From Erysipelotrichaceae bacterium (GTDB lineage Bacteria > Bacillota_I > Bacilli_A > Erysipelotrichales > Erysipelotrichaceae): DNA of 58,266 bases. A program made the position numbers and the translations under genes. The notes below the pieces were generated by a model. It was not told the DNA's origin and searched no databases. It saw nothing but the letters and a program-made list of their open reading frames with translations. Numbering within the stretch: position 1 is the stretch's first letter; each line of letters starts with the position of its first letter. Positions 14,216-17,859 of the stretch are shown here, in pieces. The stretch lies in contig JAUNEN010000008.1 of NCBI GenBank assembly GCA_030525525.1, positions 1-58,266 of the forward strand, read 5' to 3'.

Positions 14216-14247
14216 AAAAAAGAACCTGACTGCTACACACAGTCAGG
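14216..14247 (-). terminator. Terminator of the STAS/kinase cassette
   Basis: Minus-strand stem CCTGACTG/CAGTCAGG with a 7-nt loop followed by TTCTTTTTT, about 36 nt after the stop of the STAS-kinase fusion gene. Confidence 0.8.
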
Positions 14248-14283
14248 CTATTCATGCATAAAATATAAAATTTCAACTATTTT

Positions 14284-15459
14284 TTACCAGATCAGCGAAT
14301 CGGTTGTCTCAAGCAGACGCTCGATTTCTTTTCTGCAGAATTCAATGACTTCCCTGTCTGTATCAGGATGACGTCTCAAAGATCTGCGCAGAATTCTCGT
14401 ATAGCCGAGAATCTTCGCCTTGTCGGCGATGGCGGCACGCTCTTCAGGTGTCTTGTCATCGAAATAATACTCCAGTGTCTTTGCCCAGAGTTCAGCGCCC
14501 TGTTCATATGTGATTCCCAGGAATGACTTGATGTTGTCATGATCGACACAGGAGAATCCCTGATATGCATTGAAGATGGATGCGAACTCAAATACAGGAT
14601 GACCGTGGCATAGTGTATCCATATCGATCAGAAGCACTTCGCCATCCTGCAGCATGACATTCTTGATGTGATAGTCGCCATGCATCATATGGTAGTCAAC
14701 CGGTACTTCTTCAACCATTCTGTAAAGCTTTTCGCCTTTCTCTTCGGCAAGATGTTCTCTGACAAAGGAAGCCCACTTCAGTGCGACCTTTCTCATGTCG
14801 GGCATATCACCGGGTTTAACCGTGGTTGCGTGAATCTTCTTCAGAAGATCGACTGAAATTCTGACGATTTCATCAAGTGATTCCGGTTCGGCTGCCAGCC
14901 ACTTGGCAAAGGATTTTGCATTGAGCAGCTCAAACACAGATCCATATCCGCCGTCAACCTTGACAACATCATAGGGAATGGCTGTCGGAATACCGAGTAC
15001 AAAGGCATGTCTTGCCAGTTCGCGCTCACGCTGGATGTCGGGAAGTGAATCAGGATTCTTGTACACTTTGACAATGGTATCTCTGTCAATCCGGTAAACC
15101 TTACCGTTTGATCCCTGACCGATGACTTCGCAGCCTTCCACTGAGATTTCACGGTAAGCCTTCTCGATTTTCATCATCTCGGTAAAGCCGGTCATATCAA
15201 AGATTTCATAGACTTCTGCCGAAACATCGACCACCTTCAGATCGGGATACGCTTTTCTCAGACGCAGAATCACACGCAGACCTGCACTTGAAATATATTC
15301 AAGATCCGATGCGTCAATGATCAGTGATGTGCATTCAGGATGAGCTGAGCGCGCATCGTTGATTTCCTTTTCCGTGTCAGCCGCATTGGCTGAATCAATA
15401 TGTCCCTTCAGAAATATTGTCAATACTGTTCCATTAGCAGATGAATCTGTCAGACTCAT
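14284..15459 (-). CDS. STAS domain fused to aminoglycoside-phosphotransferase-like kinase
   Basis: 391 aa. Residues 1-105 are a STAS (anti-sigma-factor antagonist) domain with the phospho-acceptor region YISSAGLRVILRL (Ser near 56-57) and FDMTGFTEMM. Residues ~110-391 are an APH/choline-kinase-like fold: GQGSNGKVYRID glycine loop, VKVYK lysine, catalytic loop MMHGDYHIKNVM (about 262) and metal-binding LIDMD. All key kinase residues are present, so it should phosphorylate something, probably a small molecule or protein. Start supported by GGAGGAAAAATAA. Last gene of the cassette, 111 nt after the RsbW-like gene, with a short inverted repeat between. The substrate is unknown; fusions of this kind occur in Fibrobacter-, spirochaete- and Bacillota-type genomes (from memory). 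Confidence 0.85.
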   Translation of the reverse strand: MSLTDSSANGTVLTIFLKGHIDSANAADTEKEINDARSAHPECTSLIIDASDLEYISSAGLRVILRLRKAYPDLKVVDVSAEVYEIFDMTGFTEMMKIEKAYREISVEGCEVIGQGSNGKVYRIDRDTIVKVYKNPDSLPDIQRERELARHAFVLGIPTAIPYDVVKVDGGYGSVFELLNAKSFAKWLAAEPESLDEIVRISVDLLKKIHATTVKPGDMPDMRKVALKWASFVREHLAEEKGEKLYRMVEEVPVDYHMMHGDYHIKNVMLQDGEVLLIDMDTLCHGHPVFEFASIFNAYQGFSCVDHDNIKSFLGITYEQGAELWAKTLEYYFDDKTPEERAAIADKAKILGYTRILRRSLRRHPDTDREVIEFCRKEIERLLETTDSLIW

Positions 15460-15484
15460 TTATTTTTCCTCCGAAATTCTGTCT

Positions 15485-15513
15485 GTCACCGGTTCAAACC
15501 CTTCCGGGGTGAC
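15485..15513. repeat. Inverted repeat before the STAS-kinase gene
   Basis: GTCACC and GGTGAC arms, 17-nt loop, about 25 bp upstream of the 15459 start and within the 111-nt gap after the kinase gene at 15571. It may be a processing hairpin or an operator. Part of it resembles a tRNA T-loop only by chance. Confidence 0.35.
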
Positions 15514-15570
15514 CGTTCTTCCGCACTCACTGTATGAATGCACTGATGTAAAAATAGCAATCAAAAACTG

Positions 15571-15984
15571 TTATATATTTTTTCTGATCTTCAGAATGTT
15601 TTTTCCGTTTCTGTACTCATATGTGATCTCATCCATCGTCTTGCGGACAAGATATAAGCCCAGACCTCCGATCCTGCGCTCGGACGCCGGCAGAGTGACA
15701 TCCGGCTCATCCGTGCTGAGCGGATCAAACTGCCTTCCGCCGTCAATGAAAGTGATGGTCACCGCTACCGGATGTTTCTCCACTTCAACTCTGACGGTTG
15801 CCGGTCCGATGTCCGGCTTGTATGCATAATTGGAAATATTTCCAAAAAGTTCATCGATCGCAATATCGATCTGCATCTGCGATTTCGGCGGGCATTGCAG
15901 TTCTTCCAGTTTCCGGTTCACAAAATCTGTTACGGCAGGTATATTTTCAACGGTTGCGTCAACTGTCATTTCTCTCATGATCAT
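15571..15984 (-). CDS. RsbW/SpoIIAB-like anti-sigma-type ATP-binding kinase
   Basis: 137 aa HATPase_c domain of the serine-kinase anti-sigma class. The N-box is DELFGNISNYAY (about 47-58), the G1 box FIDGGRQFDP (about 78) and the G2 box GGLGLYLVRKTMDE (about 104). These kinases bind a target and phosphorylate a STAS antagonist on serine; the STAS gene directly upstream is the natural partner. Two ATG codons are possible (15984, 4 nt from GGAGG, or 15978, 10 nt); the first is reported. No sigma factor or PP2C phosphatase is nearby, so the controlled protein is not evident. Confidence 0.88.
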   Translation of the reverse strand: MIMREMTVDATVENIPAVTDFVNRKLEELQCPPKSQMQIDIAIDELFGNISNYAYKPDIGPATVRVEVEKHPVAVTITFIDGGRQFDPLSTDEPDVTLPASERRIGGLGLYLVRKTMDEITYEYRNGKNILKIRKNI

Positions 15985-16035
15985 GGTTCCTCCGGCTTTA
16001 AACTGTTATGACTGATCAAGCTCATATCAGCCAGA

Positions 16036-16332
16036 CTATTCCACATTCATGATGTCCAGGAAACCGGTGATGTCGAGCACCTCTCTGACCATTTCATTCA
16101 CGTGGATCAGCTTCATTTCCCCCTGAACTGCCATCTTCTTGTAGACAAGAAGCAGCACACGCAGGCCCGCGGATGAAATGTACTGAATGTCTTCAAAATC
16201 CAGCACAAGGTCATCAATCCCTTCAATCGCCGGAATCAGAATTGATTCTGCTTCCGCAGAAGTTGCCGTATCAATGCGGCCGTGCATAACGGCATCCAGA
16301 TGTGTACCGTCTTTTTTCAGTTCGATTTCCAT
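16036..16332 (-). CDS. STAS-domain anti-sigma-factor antagonist (SpoIIAA/RsbV-like)
   Basis: 98 aa, a whole STAS domain. The phosphorylatable serine region is YISSAGLRVLLLVYK (Ser near 54-55), preceded by DLVLDFEDI and followed by VLDITGFLDIMNVE. It is expected to be phosphorylated by the RsbW-like kinase encoded 51 nt downstream and, when unphosphorylated, to release the kinase's bound partner. It begins 2 nt after the stop of the EIIB-ROK gene. The STAS part of the 14284-15459 fusion is its close relative (same YISSAGLRV and TGF blocks), so the cassette holds two competing antagonist domains. Confidence 0.9.
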   Translation of the reverse strand: MEIELKKDGTHLDAVMHGRIDTATSAEAESILIPAIEGIDDLVLDFEDIQYISSAGLRVLLLVYKKMAVQGEMKLIHVNEMVREVLDITGFLDIMNVE

Positions 16333-16334
16333 AA

Positions 16335-17744
16335 CTAAGAATCCTTTCTGCTGTTTATATAATACATGGCACCATCGTACAGGTATTCCCTGACGCTGTT
16401 CACCCTTACAATCTGAGGAATATATTCAGGACGGATAAACTTTCCGATTTCCTGAATCAGCTCCGATGTGTCCGGAATCATTTTCGCATAGAATGCGATA
16501 TGAGAACATCCCGTATATGTAATCAGACCGGTCAGATATCTTGCACATAAGGCAACATTGCCTTCCGGTGTCTTTGCAAGTGCATACGGATTTTTCGGGA
16601 ATGTCGTAATATCCGTAATGCCGGCAAGCTGGGAACCGCCCATATGGCCTGCCGTACCGAATATACGTCCGTATGCCGAAATACCGATATTTCCGGCATA
16701 TTCGCCGCTGGGCACAAAGTAGAACGCGGCCATTTCACCGTTCAGTTCTTTCTGACTGTAGCCGAGCGCAATCGCATCGGTATCGTTTATCGTCAGTGTT
16801 CTGATTCCGAACTTCTCTTCGATATTTGTTCTGACATCGAAATTGAAGATGTTTCCTTTTTCGTATGTCAGCTTTCCTTCATGGAAGCTGCCCGGCGAAA
16901 CAAGGCAGATCGTTCTGATATTCTGATTCATGCGGAGCACGCTCCCGATGACATCACAGATATCCTCAGCCCGGTATCTTTCCTTGACAATCTGATTCTG
17001 CATGACGATTTCATTCTGACCATAGACACGGTAGGCAAGCTGGGTTCTGCCTTCCATGTCAATGACAGAAAGAATCAATGTGGAGCCTTCCGTACTGACA
17101 AGCTCCTGAACACCTTCTGCCTGCACGGTTTCAGACTGTTTATGCTTTTCGTATTCATCTTTGATCAGATTGATCAGCCCGAATACATCATAGCGCGAAA
17201 AGATAGCTGCCGGTATCTCAAGTACCAGTTTGTCACTCAGGATCGCACGGGCTTTTTTGAGCTGATAGCCGATCTGCGGTGCGATCAGAATCACATCCTT
17301 GTCCTGCGCGCTTTCATAAAGTTTATCATACGGCACTGCGTCAAAATCCATTTTCATTCCCATGACCCGTACGGATTCATTGAGATTCATTGTGAAATAG
17401 GATGTTGTCAGTCCGCATGTGCAGCATAAGAGCACATGGATTGCCGTATCAGTTTTCTGCTTCAGAAGTGATTCCTTCATTTCAAGGAAGAGTCCCTTTG
17501 CATGATCGAGATCATTCAGTTCAAAATGAAGGTAGAAAACATTTTCCTGCTTCGCATCGACAACCCTGAGCTCGCAGATTGTGTATTCAATGCTGTAGAG
17601 CGTGATTGTTGCGCTTGCAGAATCAGTCTTCAGGATGATTGATTCGGTTTTGTCATCACACGCTCTTTCGACTGTATATCTGCTGTCCTGCTGTTCCAGA
17701 ATCCACGCTTTCAGTTCTTCTGAGATTGCTGTCTGATTATTCAT
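16335..17744 (-). CDS. Fusion of PTS EIIB-like domain and ROK-like domain
   Basis: 469 aa from the ATG at 17744 (AGGTGAGGTG upstream); a 16-residue upstream extension is rejected. Residues ~1-95 are an alpha/beta domain not recognised. Residues ~96-195 look like a lactose/cellobiose-type PTS EIIB: HVLLCCTCGLTTSYF matches the phospho-cysteine loop, followed by DVILIAPQIGYQLKKA. Residues ~215-469 resemble ROK/ASKHA proteins: a first beta-hairpin (LILSVIDMEGRTQLAYRVY), SPGSFHEGKL, NDTDAIALGYS and GRIFGTAGHMGGSQ. The ROK zinc cysteines are missing and there is no HTH, so it is probably a sensor rather than a sugar kinase or classic repressor. First gene of the STAS/RsbW cassette. Confidence 0.7.
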   Translation of the reverse strand: MNNQTAISEELKAWILEQQDSRYTVERACDDKTESIILKTDSASATITLYSIEYTICELRVVDAKQENVFYLHFELNDLDHAKGLFLEMKESLLKQKTDTAIHVLLCCTCGLTTSYFTMNLNESVRVMGMKMDFDAVPYDKLYESAQDKDVILIAPQIGYQLKKARAILSDKLVLEIPAAIFSRYDVFGLINLIKDEYEKHKQSETVQAEGVQELVSTEGSTLILSVIDMEGRTQLAYRVYGQNEIVMQNQIVKERYRAEDICDVIGSVLRMNQNIRTICLVSPGSFHEGKLTYEKGNIFNFDVRTNIEEKFGIRTLTINDTDAIALGYSQKELNGEMAAFYFVPSGEYAGNIGISAYGRIFGTAGHMGGSQLAGITDITTFPKNPYALAKTPEGNVALCARYLTGLITYTGCSHIAFYAKMIPDTSELIQEIGKFIRPEYIPQIVRVNSVREYLYDGAMYYINSRKDS

Positions 17745-17859
17745 ACAATACACCTCACCTTCCTTCGCGTCCGAAACACTCAGGAAGACCATTCACTAAC
17801 AGTCTACCAAAATCAGCCTTAAAACACACGGAATTTATACATGTGTCTGCTCACAGCCT

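Follow-up and report, generated by a model that had tools for sequence, protein, structure and literature searches.

The window analyzed here, a 58,266-nucleotide stretch from an Erysipelotrichaceae bacterium (contig JAUNEN010000008.1), contains a putative partner-switching cassette of four minus-strand genes. In order of reading, these encode (i) EIIB-ROK (16335..17744), a 469-residue protein that joins an enzyme IIB domain of the phosphotransferase system (PTS) to a ROK domain; (ii) a free STAS protein of the SpoIIAA/RsbV type (16036..16332, 98 residues); (iii) an RsbW/SpoIIAB-type serine kinase (15571..15984, 137 residues); and (iv) STAS-APH (14284..15459, 391 residues), in which a second STAS domain is joined to an APH-type kinase. 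Open reading frames, Pfam matches, and gaps of 2, 51, and 111 nucleotides confirm the nearly contiguous, same-strand arrangement described in a first-pass annotation of this DNA. The free STAS gene begins 2 nucleotides past the EIIB-ROK stop, and the EIIB-ROK start is placed at the ATG at 17744, which has a ribosome-binding site, rather than at the upstream ATG at 17792, which has none. A pattern scan found a terminator-like hairpin of 11 pairs followed by a T run (14223..14249, minus strand) after the STAS-APH stop. Terminator-like sites in the region number 10, against 9.7 expected by chance from shuffles, so it is the position of the 14249-14223 hairpin that speaks for it; a scan for promoter-like sites in the region likewise gave numbers equal to chance. 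The upstream rpsR gene has its own hairpin at the end, which suggests that the cassette is a distinct unit.

Loci L068, L069, and L070 carry the same four genes in identical order, flanked by rpsR and an NCS2-type transporter gene; L069 has one gene more. Their products are 58–86% identical to those of the window, and this recurrence argues that the window arrangement is not due to chance. Purifying selection acts on all four genes: the ratio of nonsynonymous to synonymous substitution (dN/dS) between the window and L068 is 0.06 for STAS, 0.06 for RsbW, 0.10 for STAS-APH, and 0.19 for EIIB-ROK, with dS near saturation, and ranges between 0.06 and 0.15 for L069 versus L070 in the genes where it was computed.

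The two small proteins have the features expected of a partner-switching pair. The free STAS protein matches Pfam STAS (1.9e-14) and, above the cut-off, NCBIfam TIGR00377 (2.8e-18). Aligned with the structures of SpoIIAA and RsbV, its predicted phosphoserine is Ser54, in an ISSAG motif starting at residue 52, opposite Ser58, the phosphoserine of SpoIIAA (PMC11418112). Among the loci surveyed, the SSAG motif is present in 73 of 79 free STAS copies. The kinase matches Pfam HATPase_c_2 (3.7e-20) and the RsbW structure, and it has the N-box Glu and Asn of a GHKL serine kinase (Glu45/Asn49, aligned with RsbW), followed by FIDGG at residue 79 and GGLGLYL at residue 106. This E..N box is kept in 102 of the 103 RsbW kinase domains surveyed.

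STAS-APH is built of a STAS domain (residues 1–101; Pfam STAS, 3.6e-13) and an APH-type kinase (residues 103–387; Pfam APH, 3.9e-19). Its Ser58 also aligns with Ser58 of SpoIIAA and is invariant across homologues, so that both STAS domains carry the phosphoserine position, as had been supposed from the sequence at first reading. The kinase, then taken to be intact, does retain its active-site residues: the HxDxxxxN loop, the second metal-binding Asp, and the lysine of the APH/choline-kinase fold are all present, and Lys131, His260, Asp262, Asn267, and Asp279 are invariant in alignments of 31 and 66 sequences. An AlphaFold2 model of STAS-APH (predicted local distance difference test, pLDDT, 95.2; predicted template modeling score 0.84) places residues 1–101 on SpoIIAA from the SpoIIAA-SpoIIAB complex (Z 14.9, root-mean-square deviation 1.9 over 100 residues) and the remainder on kinases of the APH/choline kinase family (Z 14–17). 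The nearest named relative of the APH domain is NCBIfam TIGR02172 (1.1e-30), an APH-like family of Fibrobacter paralogs; STAS-APH scores 107.1 bits, well under the curated cut-off of 228.2. No paper on the function of TIGR02172 was found in the open literature, subscription papers being outside coverage.

We surveyed the surroundings of STAS-APH in 40 loci of the genus and in the best 80 wider loci, with some loci belonging to both sets. STAS-APH occurs in 41/60 genomes of the genus, in 12/392 sampled genomes of the phylum, and, across public and mostly metagenome-assembled genomes, in at least 584 stretches, labelled mostly Erysipelotrichaceae, Oscillospiraceae, Lachnospiraceae, and other Clostridia, with some Spirochaetia and Atopobiaceae. 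An RsbW gene lies near it in 35/40 genus and 64/80 wider loci, and a PP2C phosphatase gene in 22/40 and 40/80, respectively; chance expectation is ~4%, estimated from the density of such genes in the window's own genome. The strongest sign that the parts of the switch belong together is gene fusion. PP2C-RsbW fusions, usually located between STAS and STAS-APH, were found in 45 loci (13 genus, 32 wider), and STAS-APH-RsbW fusions in 17 (9 genus, 8 wider). Along the same lines, all 41 genus genomes with STAS-APH have a strong PP2C match, versus 4 of the 19 without it (Fisher 7e-11, kinship ignored). The genes thus belong together, as the first-pass annotation had proposed; the rare co-occurrence that it named as counting against this was not seen.

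Many relatives in the genus have the order STAS, PP2C-RsbW, and STAS-APH; EIIB-ROK often precedes these genes, and a sodium:dicarboxylate (SDF) symporter is sometimes present. In the window and its three closest relatives (L068, L069, and L070), where the cassette always adjoins rpsR and an NCS2-type gene, RsbW is free and the PP2C part is missing. The window RsbW is the counterpart of the C-terminal domain of PP2C-RsbW, matching the fused domain of L072 at 67%, and in an RsbW tree it nests among PP2C-fused copies, so the cassette probably lost its phosphatase. Given the SpoIIE-type PP2C that is fused to the same RsbW domain, or adjacent to it, in many relatives, secondary loss is the most likely explanation. 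The earlier observation that the cassette contains neither a sigma factor nor a PP2C gene therefore stands, but the absence of a phosphatase is unlikely to be the native layout. The genome has eight PP2C genes outside the cassette, including another PP2C-RsbW fusion on contig C115, so a phosphatase could be supplied in trans.

Two further loci of the same genome carry related genes. On contig C54 (L027:212-10430), genes for a phosphopantetheinyl transferase, a STAS protein, a PP2C-RsbW fusion, and a 2442-residue peptide-synthetase-like protein run in one direction, perhaps a second partner switch tied to a nonribosomal peptide. On contig C69 (L029:9179-12377), two genes for RsbW/histidine-kinase-like ATPases lie within an apparent electron-bifurcating hydrogenase operon.

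A second recurrent partner of STAS-APH, also lost in the window, is a small alarmone hydrolase (HD_4, MESH1/Lmo0812-like) that keeps its HDxxED motif. Its gene immediately precedes STAS-APH in 43 loci (L069, L073, L080, L085, L086, and 38 of L118-L197) and overlaps the STAS-APH open frame in a few others; the nearest solved relatives are Lmo0812, other small HD hydrolases, RelA/SpoT hydrolase domains, and MESH1. In L069, the hydrolase gene stands between RsbW and STAS-APH; the window, L068, and L070 lack it. The two losses would fit a decaying remnant, in which the genes left behind do not make up a functional switch any more. We consider this very improbable, because the dN/dS values of both species pairs are low, the active-site residues are intact, and the gene order is kept in four species.

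The first-pass annotation allowed two outputs for the switch: the tethered APH kinase or an unlinked sigma factor. In Bacillus, sigma targets are the rule for RsbW/STAS pairs, and in Shewanella, CrsR/CrsA binds RpoS (PMC6482189). By analogy, the window RsbW could hold an unlinked RpoD-type or extracytoplasmic function (ECF) sigma factor, which the free STAS protein and STAS-APH would both release as antagonists, the APH domain merely tuning its own STAS domain. Candidate targets exist in the genome, which has two RpoD-type proteins and eight smaller matches to sigma region 2. However, three of these sigma proteins were scanned, none scored above the SigBFG cut-off, and no SigB/F/G-type sigma was found in the genome; the seven remaining region-2 matches are called ECF-like from their size. 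Moreover, no sigma factor is linked to the cassette, and sigma genes are found near only 2/121 loci, at distances of 3.8–4.1 kb, whereas the partner repeatedly found linked is an enzyme whose active-site residues are intact. A classical anti-sigma switch is thus unlikely, and the sequence evidence favors the tethered kinase as output.

Other proteins carry the same switch domains. MATE-type transporters that carry an RsbW-type ATPase domain at the C-terminus occur in 5 genus and 4 wider loci (L097-L101, L130, L156, L159, and L176), and eight of the nine keep the E..N box; for instance, the L099 protein matches both MatE and Pfam HATPase_c_2 (8.6e-14). SDF symporters that begin with a degenerate RsbW-like domain occur in 6 genus and 4 wider loci (L078, L079, L080, L100, L101, L102, L123, L132, L137, and L169). 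This domain is RsbW-like by hhalign (92.9%, E 3.6e-7); Pfam gives no match and the Asn of the E..N box is lost. Finally, L077, L084, and L139 each encode, next to RsbW and STAS-APH, a fusion of a STAS domain with a Cof-type HAD phosphatase. Together with the alarmone hydrolase, these fusions suggest a metabolic rather than a transcriptional output. They could also mean that the transporters and the HAD phosphatase are what is regulated, with STAS-APH being one of several interchangeable outputs. For the window this is distinctly doubtful, since none of the fusions is present in its cassette and the SDF domain has lost a key residue and escapes Pfam.

EIIB-ROK is less tightly bound to the module. 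It consists of an N-terminal domain of ~95 residues, a lactose/cellobiose-type IIB domain (residues 100–200), and a degenerate ROK domain (residues 232–374). Pfam PTS_IIB matches narrowly past its cut-off (6.6e-5), NCBIfam pts-lac scores below its own, and Pfam ROK, which passes its cut-off in the L069 relative and two paralogs, fails to do so in the window protein (9.6e-4). A family profile against the PDB retrieved chitobiose IIB (4e-13) and, weakly, N-acetylmannosamine kinase (6e-4). Cys107, Cys108, Thr114, and Ser115 are invariant in 15 sequences, and in IIB-chitobiose the residue opposite Cys108 is the active-site Cys, so the IIB domain of EIIB-ROK has a predicted phosphorylatable cysteine. 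By contrast, EIIB-ROK lacks the hallmarks of a ROK sugar kinase: some relatives have Phe or Ser in place of Asp321, at the catalytic position, and the 15-sequence alignment contains no CxCGxxGC motif, which makes a sensor-like ROK domain more likely. An AlphaFold2 model built from four sequences reached a pLDDT of 54 and was not used.

The first-pass annotation treated EIIB-ROK as an integral part of the switch, which is not borne out. It accompanies the switch in just 14/40 genus and 3/80 wider loci, and five of its six copies in the genome lie elsewhere, so it is an accessory sensor candidate rather than part of the switch core. The family is also present in genomes without STAS-APH. The five paralogs are on contigs C191, C207, C197, C114, and C183 (L198-L202), in unrelated gene contexts, and their neighbors point to no single function.

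From the gene content, its conservation, the fusions, the co-occurrence, and the intact active-site residues, we infer a partner switch in which the STAS-tethered APH kinase is the output and the phosphatase is supplied in trans, a reading to which we assign a probability of roughly 60%. In its complete form, the module would rely on a protein with predicted membrane segments, a SpoIIE-type PP2C fused to RsbW, to set the phosphorylation of two STAS domains, the free protein and the one built into the APH-type kinase. RsbW would phosphorylate Ser54 of free STAS and Ser58 of STAS-APH, PP2C would remove the phosphate, and the unphosphorylated STAS domains would bind RsbW. The amount of RsbW holding STAS-APH would then be set by free STAS, and the switch would act on the activity or location of the APH kinase. 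In the window, which has lost the PP2C part and the hydrolase gene and is left with a free-standing kinase domain, dephosphorylation would have to come from other PP2C proteins. EIIB-ROK would be an added, sensor-like protein, perhaps answering to the sugar-PTS state. The cassette is real and probably functional, a derived copy of a widespread, apparently undescribed partner-switching variant.

Several observations weigh against this reading. Support in the RsbW tree, based on ~130 residues, is moderate, and a PP2C tree shows no clear grouping of any of the eight genomic PP2Cs with the phosphatases found in the cassettes of the closest relatives. Neither RsbW nor PP2C is found near STAS-APH in 4/40 genus and 15/80 wider loci, some of them on short contigs. 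The genome's second STAS-APH (L026:12424-13575, contig C175; 41% identity, IASSG phosphosite), whose gene starts near the contig end, and its relatives in L105-L107 have no RsbW or PP2C nearby, so STAS-APH may in some cases function independently of the switch. In addition, the fold search with the STAS-APH model scored aminoglycoside, choline, methylthioribose, and amicoumacin kinases alike and singled out no substrate.

In a broader and more tentative view, short of even odds, sigma-independent partner switching would be widespread in gut and rumen bacteria and act directly on metabolism together with the small alarmone hydrolase, its STAS and RsbW domains being built onto an APH kinase, a HAD phosphatase, MATE transporters, and dicarboxylate symporters. 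If so, a module present in at least 584 genome stretches would show partner-switch logic moving from transcription to direct enzyme control, with the parts that turn on sporulation and stress genes wired instead to a small kinase. The STAS-fused target would offer an enzyme read-out for tests in vitro. The alarmone hydrolase encoded next to it points to a possible connection with the stringent response, and the window clade would provide a natural example of a switch without the phosphatase it once had.

Partner switching is mostly known from the control of sigma factors, and a few enzymes, including HsbD and SiaD, also count among its targets. The SpoIIAA/SpoIIAB/sigma-F/SpoIIE and RsbV/RsbW/sigma-B/RsbU systems of Bacillus subtilis likewise have a STAS phosphoserine and an RsbW-type kinase, and their SpoIIE-type PP2C has a counterpart in the relatives of the cassette. 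Unlike them, the cassette has no linked sigma factor, its second STAS domain is fused to an APH kinase, and PP2C is absent, although often fused to the kinase in relatives. The first-pass annotation knew of no described system with this layout, and no paper with STAS-APH, or with a partner switch linked to an alarmone hydrolase, was found in the open literature, subscription papers being outside coverage. Other parallels are found among enzyme-linked systems. In SiaABCD of Pseudomonas aeruginosa, the PP2C SiaA and the kinase SiaB set the phosphorylation of SiaC, proposed to control SiaD (PMC7647112). The SiaA model matches the PP2C part of L080 (1.4e-23), but SiaC has a threonine phosphosite and is separate from the enzyme it targets, whereas STAS-APH has a predicted serine site and a fused enzyme. 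All4160 of Anabaena, an N-terminal STAS domain with a glycosyltransferase (named in PMC8256260), is likewise a STAS-enzyme fusion, likened here by description, but with another enzyme. In HsbR of P. aeruginosa and CrsR of Shewanella, PP2C and an RsbW-type kinase share one protein that sets a STAS protein, and HsbA targets an enzyme, the diguanylate cyclase HsbD (PMC6482189). The PP2C-RsbW proteins of the relatives resemble HsbR and CrsR but have predicted membrane segments instead of a receiver domain, which Pfam did not find in those of L080 or L028, and the window RsbW stands free. The target enzyme is a separate protein in HsbR/HsbA/HsbD, whereas in STAS-APH it is joined to the STAS domain itself.

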